DNA of 64,000 nt from Candidatus Nanohaloarchaea archaeon (GTDB lineage: Archaea > Nanohalarchaeota > Nanosalinia > Nanosalinales > Nanosalinaceae). The notes under the pieces are model-generated. The model did no database searches. It was not told where the DNA came from and worked only from the letters and a program-made list of their open reading frames with translations. The translations under genes and the position numbers were made by a program. Of the stretch, positions 23,382 to 29,310 are shown piece by piece. The stretch's first letter is position 1, and each line of letters opens with the position of its first letter. The DNA lies in NCBI GenBank assembly GCA_014297435.1, contig JACOQA010000001.1, forward strand, positions 62,001-126,000, in the 5' to 3' direction.

Positions 23382-23389
23382 TTTATATC
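23382..23389 (+). promoter_or_regulatory. TATA box of the rightward tail-fibre-like gene pair
   Basis: TTTATATC is centred about 28 bases before the ATG at 23412, the spacing expected for a leaderless archaeal mRNA. It lies in the 67-base divergent gap between the leftward Cys-module gene and the rightward surface-protein genes. Confidence 0.45.
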
Positions 23390-23411: not shown

Positions 23412-23996
23412 ATGGGTTTAGCAAGAGTCGGAGTCATTTCAATATTTGTAATATTTTTGGCTGCTTTTGTGACTGCACCAACTGTACAGCACCATCCTTT
23501 CTCCGAGCTCTTTCCGCCTGACCAGGATTTAAATTTCGGTGAATACGATGCATTCAACTTGACAGAGCTTGATTTGTCTGACGGTTCAATTTTTACAGGT
23601 AATGTGGTAAGAAACCAGGGGAACACTATCGATATAATACGCTTTATTGACAGCGGTCTTATAGAGATTCCTAACGGGGGTATTGAAGTTTCTGGCTCCA
23701 GTAAGTTCCAAAATAACGTTGAGTTTAGAAGCTCCGGTGACACTGTAAAACTGAACGGCACTGGAGGAAACCATACATACATGGAGTTTTACAAAGAATC
23801 CTCAAATCCTGGGGTGAGATCTGCTTGGGTCGGCTATGGAAGTGCTTCACGATCCGCATTCACTATCAAGAATGAACTCGGAGATAAGATCGAACTCAAG
23901 GGAGGAAAGGTTGAAGCCGCGGGAGGAGTAGACCTAAAGGGCAACAATTTAACTTCTTCCACCGGAGGTGAGATTTGTGTCGGAAGATACTGTTGA
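23412..23996 (+). CDS. Anchored surface protein with tail-fibre-like segment
   Basis: A 194-residue protein with one N-terminal hydrophobic segment (about 5-25, VGVISIFVIFLAAFV), a signal anchor or signal peptide, then beta-rich sequence. Residues about 120-165 (MEFYKESSNPGVRSAWVGYG, then FTIKNELGDKIEL) resemble repeats common in phage tail-fibre and related adhesin proteins, where a short strand pattern YIGF..S and a NE.G.I pair recur. The last residues GGEICVGRYC carry a closely spaced Cys pair. The gene overlaps the start of the Tat-targeted protein downstream by 20 bases, so the two are co-translated. A surface attachment role is inferred. Confidence 0.6.
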   Translation: MGLARVGVISIFVIFLAAFVTAPTVQHHPFSELFPPDQDLNFGEYDAFNLTELDLSDGSIFTGNVVRNQGNTIDIIRFIDSGLIEIPNGGIEVSGSSKFQNNVEFRSSGDTVKLNGTGGNHTYMEFYKESSNPGVRSAWVGYGSASRSAFTIKNELGDKIELKGGKVEAAGGVDLKGNNLTSSTGGEICVGRYC

Positions 23997-25167
23997 AATA
24001 AAGAAAGAAGAACTTGAAGAACTAATAGAGAAAAAGGTGGAGGAAAGAGTAGAGGAGCGTGTTAGAGAAGAAATTGAGGATGAGCCTCAGAAAAATGATG
24101 TAGATGAGGGAATATCCCGTAGAGGCTTCTTGAAGAAGCTTGGGGCAGGAGCTTTAGGTTTTGGAGCTATTTCTCTGCCTTCTGTTTCTGCACTTGATAT
24201 CAGAAGTGACGGTCTAAGTTATTATGGAGGTCAAAACAGTAATCTAGATTTCGATATTGATAACTCGGGTAATGTAAATCTATTAGGTTCCTTGAGTCTT
24301 GGAGGCAATCTGAAGGCTAAGGATGGAGAATTGATTTGGGATGAAGCTAAATCGCAGATTCCGTCTTCTGTAGTTGATCTGTCTGGAATCAACCATGATA
24401 ATTTATCCGGTGTTTCCGCTGATGACCACCACCCTGATCCAAGGTATGGCATAAGAAATTTAGAGCTTCAGAACACTGAGATGGATGATTCTTGGGTTTC
24501 CGGACAGTCTGGAGGACAGATTGGGTGGGATGCCTCAGTAGGGTTCTTTGTCCACTACGGCAGTTCTGGCGGTGGTGTTGGGAAAGGTTACGGAACCCTC
24601 TTAGATACAAGCAATCTACAGTTAGGCTCCAACCTGTATTTTAGTGGAGGAGAGTCTGAAGATGTAAGACCCTCTTTAGCAATTGATCAAGGTTCGGGTA
24701 GTGGTCTAGATGCAGATACAATTGACGGCAAACATGCTTCAGAATTAGGGGGGGAATTCAGGTTTGGACACGGTCTCAGAGCTAGAGGCTCATTTAGTGG
24801 GAACACGAATGCTCCTTCGGACAGTGTACAAACTTTGACTCAACCCCATAGATCTTTCTCTGGGGCTGTAAATGCAAAAATAGAGTTGGAAGCTAATGGC
24901 TCACAAAGCGGAACCGCAAGTGCAGATGCAGGAATAGAGGCAACTTTGCAAACTTCTGGAGGTGCAACAATACTCGCTGGAAACACTACAGCTACGGGTA
25001 ACGAGTTCTCATCTACGTTTAAGCAAACCCAAACAAATATTAATTTGACTCCAAATGATGAAATTACGGCCCGGGTCCATGTAACGAATGTTGCTGACGT
25101 ATATGCATCTAAAGATGCCCAGGCGACTGCGAGTGCAAATGGTACTGCTTCATTATGGGTTGAATAA
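23977..25167 (+). CDS. Tat-targeted tail-fibre-like surface protein
   Basis: I place the start at GTG 23977, because GGAGGT at 23964-23969 is seven bases upstream; the earlier GTG at 23968 overlaps that site. The 396-residue product has a charged, coiled-coil-like N-terminus (residues 1-35), then a twin-arginine signal SRRGFLKKLGAGALGFGAI with Arg48-Arg49 and an SVSALD cleavage region. Exported sequence includes SGVSADDHHPDPRYG (about 145-158) and GLDADTIDGKHASELG (about 245-260), both patterns widespread in phage and bacterial tail-fibre proteins. The C-terminus is Ala/Thr/Asn-rich beta sequence. tatA-tatC lie 3 kb downstream. Export of an already folded fibre is the natural reading. Confidence 0.72.
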   Translation: MSEDTVEIKKEELEELIEKKVEERVEERVREEIEDEPQKNDVDEGISRRGFLKKLGAGALGFGAISLPSVSALDIRSDGLSYYGGQNSNLDFDIDNSGNVNLLGSLSLGGNLKAKDGELIWDEAKSQIPSSVVDLSGINHDNLSGVSADDHHPDPRYGIRNLELQNTEMDDSWVSGQSGGQIGWDASVGFFVHYGSSGGGVGKGYGTLLDTSNLQLGSNLYFSGGESEDVRPSLAIDQGSGSGLDADTIDGKHASELGGEFRFGHGLRARGSFSGNTNAPSDSVQTLTQPHRSFSGAVNAKIELEANGSQSGTASADAGIEATLQTSGGATILAGNTTATGNEFSSTFKQTQTNINLTPNDEITARVHVTNVADVYASKDAQATASANGTASLWVE

Positions 25168-25178
25168 AGGTGGGAAAA

Positions 25179-25610
25179 ATGCGAGAGATAAACGATAAGA
25201 TTTTCCATTTTATATCAGGGGAAAGTGTGCAAAATGGGGATATAGAGAGGAATTTGAATGATGAAGGTCAGGACGTTTTGGATCGTCTGTACAGGGGAGG
25301 TCATATGATGGCTGTAAGAGATGGTTCAAACCTCAACAGTATTTGGAATTACAGCTTGGTGAGCGGCGATTTGGAGCTGAAGACGGTTTGGTACAGGCCT
25401 GAAACCAGAGGGGGCTACGGGAAGTGGGATGAGCTTTATATCTTGATGGAGCATGAAAACGTAAGCCTGATTAAATCAGAAACTCCTACAGCCGAGTTTG
25501 CAGATAAACTTGTGTCTAGAGGTGGAGATGATAAATTCTTCAGGAGAATAGGGAAAAAGAAGGTTAAAATAAGGAAAGAAGATCTAGAGGAGGATGTCGA
25601 CATTGCATAG
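25179..25610 (+). CDS. Unknown protein of the surface/Tat block
   Basis: A 143-residue protein; the ATG at 25179 has a well-placed AGGTGG ribosome site, so the GTG nine bases earlier is not used. No signal peptide or membrane helix. The N-terminal part has an HFISGES segment followed by a helical region, the middle an ISLxxGDLELKTVW-like strand, and the end is basic then acidic (KKKVKIRKEDLEED). Not recognised. Close spacing after the Tat substrate and a 17-base overlap with the next gene imply one operon. A dedicated chaperone of the Tat-exported protein is one possibility, unsupported by homology. Confidence 0.55.
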   Translation: MREINDKIFHFISGESVQNGDIERNLNDEGQDVLDRLYRGGHMMAVRDGSNLNSIWNYSLVSGDLELKTVWYRPETRGGYGKWDELYILMEHENVSLIKSETPTAEFADKLVSRGGDDKFFRRIGKKKVKIRKEDLEEDVDIA

Positions 25611-25893
25611 GTTTGAGTCAGAAGTATCGAATAAAATGATTGAGAAAGATGACTTTTTCGCGACAAGATTTGAAATTACGGAGATTGACGAACAGTTTGA
25701 TGAAGCCTATTTTTCAATAGTCTGTAATTCATGTAATCTGGCAGATAATAAGATATTTTTGAGATCTCCGCCTCATACATTGAGGATTACTTGTGATTAT
25801 TGCGGGCAGGCTCATAGAATTCATTTCGAATCATATGACAAGTTTATAGATTATATCAAGTCTGAAACAAGCGTTAGTGTTCACGAAAATTAA
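25594..25893 (+). CDS. Small zinc-finger-like protein
   Basis: A 99-residue cytoplasmic protein with two CxxC pairs, CNSC near residue 44 and CDYC near residue 67, spaced as in a zinc ribbon. The start is uncertain: ATG 25594 directly abuts GAGG, while TTG 25603 has better spacing from the same AGAGGAGG site. It overlaps the gene upstream, so the two are probably translated in tandem. No enzyme motif seen; a zinc-stabilised fold is likely, function unknown. Confidence 0.55.
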   Translation: MSTLHRFESEVSNKMIEKDDFFATRFEITEIDEQFDEAYFSIVCNSCNLADNKIFLRSPPHTLRITCDYCGQAHRIHFESYDKFIDYIKSETSVSVHEN

Positions 25894-25950
25894 TGCAAAT
25901 CTTTGAGGGGCAAAGTATACAAAGTCTTACAATAAATTGTATTGATACCA

Positions 25951-27297
25951 ATGTCTACTGATGTAGTTGTATTTATAGACGCTCTATCTCCGAGAGAGCT
26001 GGAAGGCTTTTTGGAGGAGAATTATCAGGGAAATATGGATGCCGATGTACCCCGTGTAACACCAAGAGTTATGTCAAGTATATATACCGGATTAAGTCCG
26101 GCGGAAAACGGTATGATGTCTATATCCAAAGAGGGTGGAGAAGATGCTACAAGACCCAAGAAGTCCACTTTTATTGATCAGGCTGTAAGGGAGGGAAAGA
26201 AGGTTTTGTCCATGGGAATGCCTTTCAGCGTACCGTTCAAAATTGATTCTGTAGAGGCAGAAGAATTTGAATCTCTACTTCAGGGAGGTGCACTTCAGGG
26301 AGAATCATATACGTTACCTGGACAAGCTTCAGATATATTGAATGTTCCTGCGCCATCCGCTGACATGATTAAGGACCACCCTGATACAACTTATTCAAGT
26401 TTTCTGGATCAGACAAGACAGTTTTTCCTGAGAGCTAAAGAGAATATAAGGAGAGATGATTTCGACGTAGTCTTTCTTGGTTATCGGCTTGTAGACTCTT
26501 ATTGCCACTTTCAGCATACAGAGGAGCGAAATGGGAAGCCTTACAGGCAGCATCTTATTGATAATGTTCAATCGCTTTTGAAGGAGATAGATAATCAGAT
26601 TGACGGCGACTTAATGTTTTTCTCTGATCACGGTCAGACCGAGTTAACAGATACATTCAGGGTAAACAAATGGTTGAAAGAAAATGGCTGGCTGGATTAC
26701 AGAGTTGATTACGACTTTATAGATGATTTAACCAAGTATCAGCAGGGTGAAAAACACCCTGTAAATGAAAGGGTTGAAAACCAGGTAACTTTGAATCAGC
26801 CGGGTGTGAGGTTGGATGAAGAGAACTCGAAAGTTGTATGCTCAGATCCTTTTGACTCATGCTTAACTTTGCTATGTGATAGAGAAGATTTTGATGAAGA
26901 GAAGTTTAGAGAGGAGTTAATGTCGACAGGGATGTATCGTTCCGTCAAGTACAAGTGGGAAATTTACGACGAGGACGCTGACTTTTACGAGACAGTTCCC
27001 GATATAATTCCCGATAGAGCCGAAGGGGTATTTGTCTCCGGCAACCTACACAAGAATCCGATCGGAATGGGGTACTACAGAACCGGTGTACACGACAGAA
27101 CTGCGTGTTTCGGCGCCACCAAAAAGTTGAATATCTCTGATAAGGAAGAAATTAAGCCAGAGGACATGTATGATGTAATAACTGATTTCATTGATCTAGA
27201 GTTGACCGAGCCGCCTTTAGACGAGCAAGATATCAATGGCTGGAACGATGAAGAGGTAAAGCTTGCAAGAAAGAGACTGGAGGGAAATAAGGAATGA
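25951..27297 (+). CDS. Alkaline-phosphatase-superfamily phosphodiesterase/sulfatase-like enzyme
   Basis: Two-metal hydrolase of the alkaline phosphatase superfamily (nucleotide pyrophosphatase, phosphodiesterase or phosphopentomutase-like branch), 448 residues. Metal and nucleophile residues can be followed: Asp10 in VVFIDALSP, a nucleophile Thr37 in PRVTPRVMSSIYTGL, Asp and His in the YRLVDSYCHFQH segment, the Asp-His pair in FFSDHGQTE, and a late His in GVHDRTACFGA. No signal peptide, so cytoplasmic. The ATG at 25951 fits the fold; the TTG three codons earlier is less likely. It overlaps the PAPS-reductase-like gene by four bases, and in halophilic archaea such pairs occur near sulfate-activation genes. 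Substrate unknown. Confidence 0.82.
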   Translation: MSTDVVVFIDALSPRELEGFLEENYQGNMDADVPRVTPRVMSSIYTGLSPAENGMMSISKEGGEDATRPKKSTFIDQAVREGKKVLSMGMPFSVPFKIDSVEAEEFESLLQGGALQGESYTLPGQASDILNVPAPSADMIKDHPDTTYSSFLDQTRQFFLRAKENIRRDDFDVVFLGYRLVDSYCHFQHTEERNGKPYRQHLIDNVQSLLKEIDNQIDGDLMFFSDHGQTELTDTFRVNKWLKENGWLDYRVDYDFIDDLTKYQQGEKHPVNERVENQVTLNQPGVRLDEENSKVVCSDPFDSCLTLLCDREDFDEEKFREELMSTGMYRSVKYKWEIYDEDADFYETVPDIIPDRAEGVFVSGNLHKNPIGMGYYRTGVHDRTACFGATKKLNISDKEEIKPEDMYDVITDFIDLELTEPPLDEQDINGWNDEEVKLARKRLEGNKE

Positions 27298-28232
27298 CCT
27301 GGAATGGAAGAGCCAGCTGGAGGAATGCCAAACCTATTGGAGGATCACAGACTCAAAAAGTAGGAGAAGCAGTTTCTGCCTTAGAAAAAGCCATTGAGGA
27401 AAATGAGAAGGTACTATTCCTTTGGACGGGTGGTAAGGAGGCACAGGTTATTGCAGATTTACTGCTTTATGAGGTCGGTGAAGAAGATGGTGTTTCCCCT
27501 GTACCTTTTGGGGTTATCGATACTGGCAACCAGTTCGAAAGTATGTATGATTTTAGAGAGGAGTTCTTGGCTGCCGATGGCGACAAAGGAGCTAACACTG
27601 TTGGACCGTTCGAGGGTATAGGAAATAAGGTTATAGTTGAGAGACATGACGAGTTTTTGGAGAAAATAATTGAGAATGAAAATGATCCTCGCGGATATCA
27701 TGGAAAACACTCCGGAGAATGGAAATGTCCTGAATGCCGGCAGAAAGCCAAAAGAGATAACACTACTATTATCTGCGAGGGTTGCGGTGAAACAAAACTT
27801 GAATCTGTACAAAGACAGAATCTTTCGCCCGAAGAATGGGGTGTTCCTGAATCGTGTGGCGCACTAAAGGTCGAGCCATTGAAACGTTTCGTTAAAGATC
27901 ATGGTTTCACTACCATGATTACGGGCATTCGAGGTACTGATATGATCGAACAGGGTGACTCCGATTCTAGAATTTTTGAGGAAAAAAACGAACCCGCAAA
28001 TTATTCACGGATTAACCCGTTGATTAATTGGAGTGAGGAGAATGTGTGGGCTTACATTAAAGCTGAATCTGTTTCATATCCGGAGCTTTATGACCAGGGT
28101 TACAGGCATACTGATTCGAAGTGCTGTACATCTAAGGAAGATCGTGGTGGCGCGGATGAATACGGTGAGGGCGGCATAGATGCCGAAAAGGCTGCAGCTA
28201 AGAAAGATCTTCAGGACATGGGGTACGTATAA
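27294..28232 (+). CDS. PAPS-reductase/CysD-like ATP-binding protein with altered PP-loop
   Basis: A 312-residue protein of the adenine nucleotide alpha-hydrolase fold (PAPS reductase, ATP sulfurylase CysD family). The PP-loop, normally SGGKDS, here reads TGGKEA at residues 45-50. Family hallmarks remain: GVIDTGNQFE after the loop, a TMITGIRG strand, and RINPLINWSEENVWAYI, which in CysD contacts the nucleotide. An insert near residues 144-165 has two Cys pairs (CPEC, CEGC) of a zinc ribbon, and a CCTS motif sits near the C-terminus. Translation is coupled to the phosphodiesterase gene. It may activate sulfate or another substrate; the changed loop makes the reaction uncertain. Confidence 0.8.
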   Translation: MTWNGRASWRNAKPIGGSQTQKVGEAVSALEKAIEENEKVLFLWTGGKEAQVIADLLLYEVGEEDGVSPVPFGVIDTGNQFESMYDFREEFLAADGDKGANTVGPFEGIGNKVIVERHDEFLEKIIENENDPRGYHGKHSGEWKCPECRQKAKRDNTTIICEGCGETKLESVQRQNLSPEEWGVPESCGALKVEPLKRFVKDHGFTTMITGIRGTDMIEQGDSDSRIFEEKNEPANYSRINPLINWSEENVWAYIKAESVSYPELYDQGYRHTDSKCCTSKEDRGGADEYGEGGIDAEKAAAKKDLQDMGYV

Positions 28233-28349
28233 TTGTTCAATCTGAGTTAATATAGTGGACTCAAATTTTTGCAGATAATTAGTTTAATCCTTCTGAGAAA
28301 TTGACGCGCAATCAACAGTAAGCTGGTTGCATTGGTTCCTGTGGCAAAG

Positions 28350-28357
28350 TTATATAG
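28350..28357 (+). promoter_or_regulatory. TATA box of tatA-tatC
   Basis: TTATATAG lies about 28 bases before the tatA ATG at 28381, so the mRNA is predicted to be leaderless. The 148-base gap also holds a GGTTCGATTCC stretch that imitates a tRNA T-arm but has no tRNA around it. Confidence 0.5.
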
Positions 28358-28380
28358 GTTCGATTCCCTTACAATCAACT

Positions 28381-28617
28381 ATGGTATTAAGTCCAGGTTT
28401 AGGAGAGATCGTATTGATCGGAGCTGCGGTACTATTCCTCATAATGGGTCCTAAAAAGCTTCCTCAGTTTGCCAGATCTTTAGGTGAATCAAAGAAAGAG
28501 TTCAAGAAGTCTATGAACGAGGCACAGGAAGTAGTTGATGAAGCCGAAGAAGTAGGAGAGGAAATGAGACCTGATGCAGAATCTGAAGTAGAGGATATAA
28601 AGTCTTCAAGTGAATGA
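28381..28617 (+). CDS. tatA: Twin-arginine translocase subunit TatA
   Basis: Small membrane protein that forms the Tat export pore, 78 residues. One N-terminal membrane helix (about 8-22, GEIVLIGAAVLFLIMG) is followed by the hinge and amphipathic helix PKKLPQFARSLGESKKEFKK and an acidic tail. The usual Phe-Gly before the hinge is Met-Gly here. The start at 28381 gives the normal extracellular N-terminus and fits the TATA spacing; a longer TTG-started frame is unlikely. tatC follows after six bases. The Tat route is widely used by salt-in archaea, because folded proteins must cross the membrane. Confidence 0.93.
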   Translation: MVLSPGLGEIVLIGAAVLFLIMGPKKLPQFARSLGESKKEFKKSMNEAQEVVDEAEEVGEEMRPDAESEVEDIKSSSE

Positions 28618-28623
28618 TCGGGG

Positions 28624-29310
28624 ATGCAGCAGTTAGAAGATCATGTAATAGAGCTTAGAAGGCGGCTAATACGTATATCAATATCTCTAGTAATAGCCAC
28701 TGCTTTATCCTTCTATTTCTCGCCTGACATACTTATCTGGCTTCAAAATGATCTTTCAGTAGAGGTACACGCTTTGAAAGCGTTCGAAACTTTCTACACT
28801 GAGTTGATGATAGCCTTGATTCTTGGATTCTTCATAAGTCTTCCATACACGATTTACCAGATAATCAAGTTCATGAAGCCAGGGCTTAAAGAAAGAGAAT
28901 ACAAGGTTATGAGAAACTATCTTCCTTTCTCAATAATACTGTTTCTCGGCGGAGCGGTTTTCGCATACGAATTTGTTATTAAGGCAAGTTTTGCCTTCTT
29001 TGAAGGAGTAGGTCAATCTGCCGGCGTAACCTCGGTATGGGGTCTAAAAAACACTCTAGGTTTTGCGATGAAGATTTCAGGATTTACAGGGGTATTTTTC
29101 CAGTTACCTATAGTTTCAGTAGTTCTCGCTAGGGCAGGAATACTTGAATCCGAGATGATGGTCAAGTACAGGAACTATTTCATTGTGGCTGTGCTTCTAT
29201 TCTCAGCCATGGCAACTCCTCCGGATTTGATTACGCAGATTCTGATAACCTTGCCTGTCATAGGACTCTATCAAGTCAGTATCTTCTTGGTGGGAAAGAT
29301 TCAGAACTGA
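28624..29310 (+). CDS. tatC: Twin-arginine translocase subunit TatC
   Basis: Receptor for twin-arginine signal peptides, six membrane helices, 228 residues, which is typical minimal TatC length. Family motifs: HVIELRRRLI at the N-terminus, KPGLKEREYKV in the first cytoplasmic loop, an FxxGAVFAYE segment in helix 3, and MATPPDLITQ before the last helices. Co-transcribed with tatA. The likely substrates in this window are the tail-fibre-like protein at 23977 and, less surely, the metzincin-like protein at 56668. Confidence 0.96.
   Translation: MQQLEDHVIELRRRLIRISISLVIATALSFYFSPDILIWLQNDLSVEVHALKAFETFYTELMIALILGFFISLPYTIYQIIKFMKPGLKEREYKVMRNYLPFSIILFLGGAVFAYEFVIKASFAFFEGVGQSAGVTSVWGLKNTLGFAMKISGFTGVFFQLPIVSVVLARAGILESEMMVKYRNYFIVAVLLFSAMATPPDLITQILITLPVIGLYQVSIFLVGKIQN

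Follow-up and report, generated by a model that had tools for sequence, protein, structure and literature searches.

A predicted Tat-exported, phage-tail-related fibre protein encoded beside tatA-tatC in a nanohaloarchaeon

The PaoABC complex, at 135 kDa, is among the largest complexes known to pass the twin-arginine translocation (Tat) system (PMC4273604). In nanohaloarchaea, the patchy occurrence of TatC has been noted and attributed to salinity (PMC9765267), and Ca. Nanohalococcus occultus was reported in 2023 to have TatC alone, its Tat system being deemed probably inactive (PMC10266531). It is an open question by what means DPANN archaea, nanohaloarchaea among them, recognise a host and keep hold of it. 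We now offer candidate proteins for this, together with the route by which they may be exported and a viral source. The proteins come from a 64,000-nucleotide stretch of DNA (the window), which is part of contig C1 of the nanohaloarchaeal genome G000 (1.0 Mb, 99% complete). Here two overlapping genes, P1 and P2, encode putative surface proteins, and tatA-tatC lies 3.2 kb downstream of P2 on the same strand (Table 1). We consider it fairly probable, from the sequences compared below, that Tat is kept in these archaea mainly to export pre-folded, partly virus-derived surface fibres, some of them probably hitchhiking on a protein that bears the signal.

The Tat signal and phage-tail segment of P2

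The first-pass annotation had given the 396-residue P2 a twin-arginine signal, and a signal check agrees: TIGR01409 (TAT_signal_seq) matched residues 46-70 with 20.4 bits, above the curated NCBI cut-off of 16.7. P2 has the S-R-R-x-F-L-K motif with its arginine pair at residues 48-49, a hydrophobic stretch and a small-residue cleavage site, and its sequence suggests that cleavage likely occurs after VSA. R48, R49, K53, G58 and S71 were invariant in an alignment of 19 members of the P2 family. The arginine pair is preceded by an n-region of 47 residues (20 D/E, 8 K/R), and a charged n-region is conserved in the P2 paralogues. This region had been described as a charged, coiled-coil-like extension. 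The charged helix stood, since the AlphaFold model has a helix at residues 10-34, whereas a coiled coil in P2 itself found no support, the heptad periodicity not being significant (p 0.43). Periodicity was significant in five relatives, two in genome G025 and three in G009, and these true heptads suggest that the n-region may be an oligomerisation device, a proposal that we make tentatively. Because the n-region lies ahead of the signal, cleavage should remove it, and any such role should be played before export.

Residues 160-257 of P2 were 57% identical to a tail protein of the Salinibacter phages M8CC-19 and M31CC-1 (E 1e-12). The homology of P2 to tail proteins is confined to this segment, with a PHROG tail fibre match at E 0.0013. 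The DADTIDGKHAS stretch also matched tail fibres of viral contigs, which in loci L139 and L140 are encoded directly after baseplate-type genes. No relative of residues 266-396 was found. Single-sequence AlphaFold2 gave a mean predicted local distance difference test (pLDDT) score of 37.6 for P2 and 36.8 for its C-terminal part, and a Foldseek search with the P2 model returned the lambda central tail fibre first (TM-score 0.21) and jelly rolls next. Because the models are of low confidence, we did not use this list as evidence.

P1 has a hydrophobic N-terminal segment without a Tat motif, as expected of a protein of the general secretory (Sec) pathway, a conserved start (P-[FL]-S...D.DL) and the C-terminus GEICVGRYC. 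Its relatives were found at four places on contig C11 of the same genome and in G026, G015, G018 and G025. The C-terminal motif recurs in other P1-like genes directly 5' of genes for Tat-signal proteins of the P2 family, which we call carriers. We also observed that a C-terminal [IL]C.G..C (window 23964-23993) is kept on many Sec-type or pilin-like proteins just upstream of carriers, and that a gene which by eye is thioredoxin-like lies near such proteins in G018 and G026. Residues 120-180 of P1, including FTIKNELGD, were 43% identical to part of a 1474-residue Sec-type fibre of G026, which has YadA-head repeats and is encoded ahead of Tat carriers. Pfam, PHROGs and PDB sequence searches gave nothing useful for P1, with no phage match, and no Pfam match to a YadA head or stalk with membrane barrel was found in P1 or P2. 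The fibre-like patterns first remarked on in both proteins are nevertheless beyond chance, given the phage-tail identity of P2 and the identity of P1 to the YadA-head-repeat fibre.

The signal family and its association with tatC

P2 and its relatives resemble one another from the n-region through the signal into the first residues of the mature protein. Searched against 297 genomes with an E cut-off of 1e-8, the family profile A1 found 28 members. They fall in 7 genomes, all of them nanohaloarchaeal. TatC is encoded in 8 of the 28 nanohaloarchaeal genomes; strong family matches occurred in 6 of these 8 and in 1 of the 20 others (Fisher p 5e-4, which is not an independent-samples probability, the genomes being related). 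The sole family-bearing genome without a tatC hit, G025 (PL-Br10_U2g16), is 77% complete. The two tatC genomes without strong matches are drafts, and in one of them, G027, a contig edge cuts through the end of an apparent member (L051). In the window genome, G017, G018, G022, G026 and G027 the distance between a family member and tatA or tatC is 0.06 to 4 kb; these are all the genomes of family f1 examined that have an intact tatA-tatC. tatA adjoins tatC in seven genomes, and tatC is followed by RNase J in three genera, represented by the window, G018, G026 and G027. These figures rest on draft genomes, small numbers and gene starts set by eye, and hydrophobicity stood in for a trained signal predictor.

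In the window genome, only three of 14 RRx[FLI]K-type DNA-pattern matches were followed by a hydrophobic stretch. All three were family members, and the A1 profile search returned the same three signals; atypical signals would be missed by this census, which combined the profile and the pattern. What is conserved across loci is a Tat carrier beside tatA-tatC, with a Sec-type fibre gene just ahead of many carriers, whereas none of the remaining intact tat loci examined has the two small genes, the phosphodiesterase gene or the CysD-like gene that follow P2. Conservation of the neighbourhood held for the association of carrier and tatA-tatC in six genomes and failed for the exact gene order. With that correction, the central proposal of the first-pass annotation, a folded, Tat-exported fibre encoded in the tatA-tatC block, gains support from three sides: its Tat signal, its homology to phage tails and the association conserved in six genomes. 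The YadA-head and beta-helix bodies of relatives point to trimeric or fibrous cargo.

Could these archaea simply use Tat in the manner of haloarchaea, since halophiles route much of their secretion through it in response to salt, with the adjacency to tatAC being incidental and the signal-less genes described below unrelated? One study ties nanohaloarchaeal TatC to salt adaptation (PMC9765267), and G009 sends beta-helix proteins through Tat from genes that are not beside its tat genes. However, all three canonical Tat signals of the window genome are on the family, P1-like and most LamG proteins have Sec-type signals, carriers lie at most 4 kb from tatA-tatC in six of six f1 genomes examined, and carriers of 70-75 residues hold almost no mature protein. 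Ordinary salt-driven use therefore seems to us unlikely. Ahead of the arginine pair, the Tat proteins of G009 (L143, L145, L146) show clear heptad coiled coils, and their bodies are beta-helix or pectate-lyase-like; the tat genes of this genome lie elsewhere, near ribosomal protein genes.

We think it extremely unlikely that Tat is inactive in nanohaloarchaea. The published view rests on a single TatC (SVXNc_0793) in Ca. Nanohalococcus occultus SVXNc, hence 'likely inactive' (PMC10266531), but the genome of this species, our G018, has a TatA adjoining TatC (L045 6563-6886, minus strand) with two family carriers alongside. Because tatA sits beside tatC in G018, the published inference is contradicted at the level of the genome sequence. 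The published SVXNc adhesin operon adjoins Tat carriers in the same genome. TatA and TatC are likewise both present and intact in the window genome, where TatC aligns over its full length with the solved TatC structure 4b4a and retains acidic residues in the signal-binding regions. It is through these regions that TatC binds signal peptides.

Short carriers, signal-less partners and haloviral tail proteins

Several family members are short: 70 and 226 residues (C11 of the window genome), 75, 108 and 209 (G017), 111 (G018) and 111 and 121 (G022), and several of these finish in a tail such as QSSQPSNPSNGDIWVDTS. Most carriers are followed, after 0 to 11 nt at the junctions measured, by a gene without an N-terminal hydrophobic stretch. 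The 121-residue carrier of G022 overlaps its downstream neighbour, and the 111-residue carrier of the same genome has tatA directly next to it. The Kyte-Doolittle (KD) maxima of these partners over the first 60 residues were at most 0.61, against 1.85-2.82 in seven Sec controls. Partner domains include LamG (E 3e-64), fn3 and Gly-rich regions. Among the LamG genes of the order with a readable 5' end, 28 of 31 have their own hydrophobic N-terminus; two of the remaining three follow carriers and the third, in G021, is ambiguous (p 0.0065). Three tandem members in G026 combine Tat signal, common linker and beta-propeller in one chain, while in G025 the propeller has a gene of its own, without a signal, following a 249-residue carrier. 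Programmed frameshifting or readthrough from carrier to partner was rejected because their frame relation varies between loci.

One arrangement recurs as a cassette in two genera (G017 and the window genome). It opens with a P1-like gene of the Sec type, whose product has a DKRDC..QxVYCTN.D tail, and continues with a Tat carrier and a partner that has no signal. Carrier and partner measure 75 and 755 residues in G017 and 70 and 1402 in the window genome, where a 243-residue CxxC protein lies between them. The two partners are 50% identical over 581 residues, and at full scale their family was found at these two loci only within the order, with a 69-residue partial match in G023. We also noted two 243-residue CxxC paralogues (L048 3231-3962 and 10518-11249), 52% identical, inside C11 carrier cassettes; such cytoplasmic CxxC proteins are possibly assembly factors. 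No sequence link was found between them and the 99-residue CxxC protein of the window.

The 755-residue partner was homologous to HrrHm1_100 of Halorubrum virus Humcor1 (40% identity, 81% coverage, E 9e-89), encoded two genes past the tape-measure gene, and to HALG_00046 of the Halorubrum virus CGphi46 (42% identity). Its C-terminal module also matched HGTV-1, just downstream of the baseplate genes, and the partner following the 121-residue carrier of G022 matched a virion structural family (E 9e-18) and HGTV-1 gp10. Viral tail proteins are assembled inside the cell and for this reason have no signal; this would account for the absence of signals from the partners as well as for their need of a carrier. 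It is possible, though we hold the idea with reserve, that nanohaloarchaea took tail proteins for host recognition from viruses of halophiles, including those that infect haloarchaea of the kind they live on, that they display them on the surface by way of a fused or in-trans Tat signal, and that the n-region assembles the subunits before export.

Homology of the partners and of part of P2 to haloviral or phage tail proteins would also be expected if the genes were proviral debris, remnants of integrated halovirus tails that form no surface structure, and a virus-like contig of G021 carries signal-less fibres that by eye resemble a G017 gene near tatA. Yet the frames are open throughout, the cassette is repeated in two genera, a Tat or Sec signal has been added on the carriers and P1, genes for glutamyl-tRNA synthetase and RNase J are among the neighbours, and reading the loci by eye revealed nothing like a capsid, portal or terminase gene. 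We regard debris as very unlikely. Around the window fibres the genes are cellular (RNase J, GltX, tatAC), with no viral or proviral setting. With its polymerase-like genes, fibre genes and Gly-rich tail genes, the G021 contig (C2, 111.8 kb; L218-L219) has the look of a large virus, or of an element resembling one, that was binned together with a nanohaloarchaeon; the G017 gene that the fibre N-termini of this contig resemble is L044 9063. No member of the Tat family was found on viral contigs. Profile A1 has no stretch conserved enough for contig scanning, and a scan with the subset profile A3 returned only PL-Br10_U2g16 contigs and an unrelated Tat protein (L136).

Whether the partners leave through Tat at all is a separate matter. 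They might stay inside, or leave otherwise (by a type IV-like channel or lysis), with the carrier working alone. Partners reach 1402 residues, and known Tat hitchhikers are mostly compact enzymes, both of which favour such an explanation, as does a VirB4-type system for giant proteins proposed in nanohaloarchaea (PMC10266531). On the other hand, LamG and fn3 are typical of extracellular proteins, clearly called signal-less LamG genes were found after carriers only, and beta-propeller or Gly-rich modules occur both fused to a Tat signal (L047, L061) and as separate downstream genes (L060, L044). An exit without Tat is somewhat unlikely in our view, and hitchhiking of the signal-less partners on carriers is, on these comparisons, plausible but still doubtful.

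Several findings weigh against the preferred reading, that Tat serves mainly folded fibres and their partners. In the window no obvious adhesin partner follows P2, only the 146-residue signal-less protein. The largest partner would approach or exceed in size the largest complexes that Tat is known to transport, the more so if it is oligomeric. The G021 LamG gene has no clear signal, a signal-less relative of one partner domain occurs in G023, a draft that lacks tatC, and G009 has family members, none near its tat genes, as well as other Tat substrates. The absence of significant heptads from the n-region of P2 belongs here too.

Locus layout, proposed pathway and comparison with described systems

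Table 1. Features of the P1-P2-tatA-tatC locus (positions in the window; aa, amino acids)
Feature	Position	Strand	Remarks
TATA-like TTTATAT	23382..23388	+	~24 nt 5' of P1 start; by eye
P1	23412..23996	+	194-aa Sec-type surface protein, heads operon
P2	23977..25167	+	396-aa Tat-targeted fibre (predicted); GTG start at 23977
P2 n-region, residues 1-47	23977..24117	+	charged amphipathic helix before arginine pair
P2 Tat signal, residues 46-72	24112..24192	+	SRRGFLKKLGAGALGFGAISLPSVSA
P2 residues 160-257	24454..24747	+	segment homologous to phage tail protein, ending in DADTIDGKHAS
P2 residues 266-396	24772..25164	+	beta-rich C-terminal region by predicted strands
146-aa signal-less protein	25170..25610	+	begins 2 nt past P2
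99-aa protein, two CxxC pairs	25594..25893	+	overlaps preceding 146-aa gene
Type I phosphodiesterase-like protein	25942..27297	+	PF01663, Pfam search
PAPS-reductase/CysD-like protein	27294..28232	+	PF01507, zinc ribbon inserted; Pfam search
tatA	28381..28617	+	PF02416, 47 bits vs cut-off 21
tatC	28624..29310	+	PF00902, 192 bits vs cut-off 25

The overlap of P1 and P2, their coordinates, frames and motifs were borne out as first described, and the Pfam matches in Table 1 confirmed the phosphodiesterase-like, CysD-like, tatA and tatC genes on the same strand. The GTG of P2 lies within the 3' end of P1, and this 20-nt overlap, with spacings of +2 and -17 nt for the next two genes, makes 23412-25893 a tight four-gene unit. 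Gaps of 48 nt and 94 nt precede the phosphodiesterase/CysD-like pair and the tatA open reading frame, respectively. The listed tatA frame opens at 28327, although the likely start is ATG 28381, chosen because it fits the TatA lengths seen elsewhere and because a TATA-like box lies near 28350. The TATA-like element ahead of P1 could be a leaderless promoter; a sigma-70-type promoter scan gave counts at chance level and is uninformative for archaea.

Some further observations concern the surroundings. The phosphodiesterase-like and CysD/PAPS (phosphoadenosine phosphosulfate)-reductase-like genes (25942-28232) stand between fibre genes and tatA in this genome only; in G023 a gene that by eye is phosphodiesterase-like (L220 1004-1765) lies beside a signal-less fibre gene. 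Several toxin-antitoxin-like small gene pairs lie between the Tat beta-propeller genes and tatA of G026 (L047 12098-15167). A secreted Cys-containing protein is encoded divergently from P1 (22427-23344, minus strand), and the same divergent pair occurs on contig C11, in G018 and twice in G015 (L048, L142, L185, L205). Pilin-like genes often stand behind the divergent gene, a conserved surface-protein locus independent of Tat.

Taken together, the data are consistent with the following pathway. A two-component TatAC translocase would be retained mainly for a family of fibre proteins, several of which appear to be mosaics built from the tail proteins of tailed viruses of halophiles. P1 would pass through Sec and end up outside, while P2 would fold, and probably oligomerise, in the cytoplasm and then cross TatAC folded, so that P1-like and Tat-exported proteins would meet outside. 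The helical n-region, removed with the signal peptide, might act before export by holding subunits together or by delaying export. In the sister loci the Tat protein is reduced to a short carrier, and the downstream signal-less adhesin or viral tail protein would probably hitchhike on it. Attachment of the cell to its haloarchaeal host would be the most likely task of the exposed fibres.

These data revise a published claim of Tat inactivity in a cultivated species, and cultivated co-cultures make the export of fibres testable. Co-export on minimal carriers, if true, would mean that surface adhesins, and not cofactor enzymes alone, can be Tat hitchhikers, and would explain how a cell displays viral tail proteins that normally have no export signal.

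None of the three elements, two-component Tat, Tat hitchhiking and viral fibres, is new by itself; their combination appears to be. The locus resembles the Tat hitchhikers of E. coli, HybOC and PaoABC (PMC4273604), in having one Tat-signal subunit with signal-less partner genes adjacent, but here the partners are adhesins or viral tail proteins instead of cofactor enzymes, the carriers are as short as 70-75 residues, and co-export is predicted. Carrier partners and P2 residues 160-257 share homology with halovirus and phage tail proteins (HrrHm1_100, HALG_00046, HGTV-1 and M8CC-19 gp26), yet the archaeal versions are joined to a Tat signal or carrier, whereas the tail of a virus is put together in the cytoplasm and does not have to be exported. 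The SVXNc adhesin operon (PMC10266531) is the same type of locus, with fibre and LamG genes beside TatC, described in that paper without mention of TatA or Tat carriers. Host attachment has also been proposed for SPEARE and other giant surface proteins of nanohaloarchaea, but these are giant membrane-anchored proteins associated with a VirB4-like ATPase (PMC10266531), another protein type with another export route. Trimeric autotransporter adhesins, finally, share their YadA head with the Sec-type fibre of G026 that precedes Tat carriers, whereas here there is no outer membrane or translocator barrel, and P1 and P2 themselves are without a match to them.

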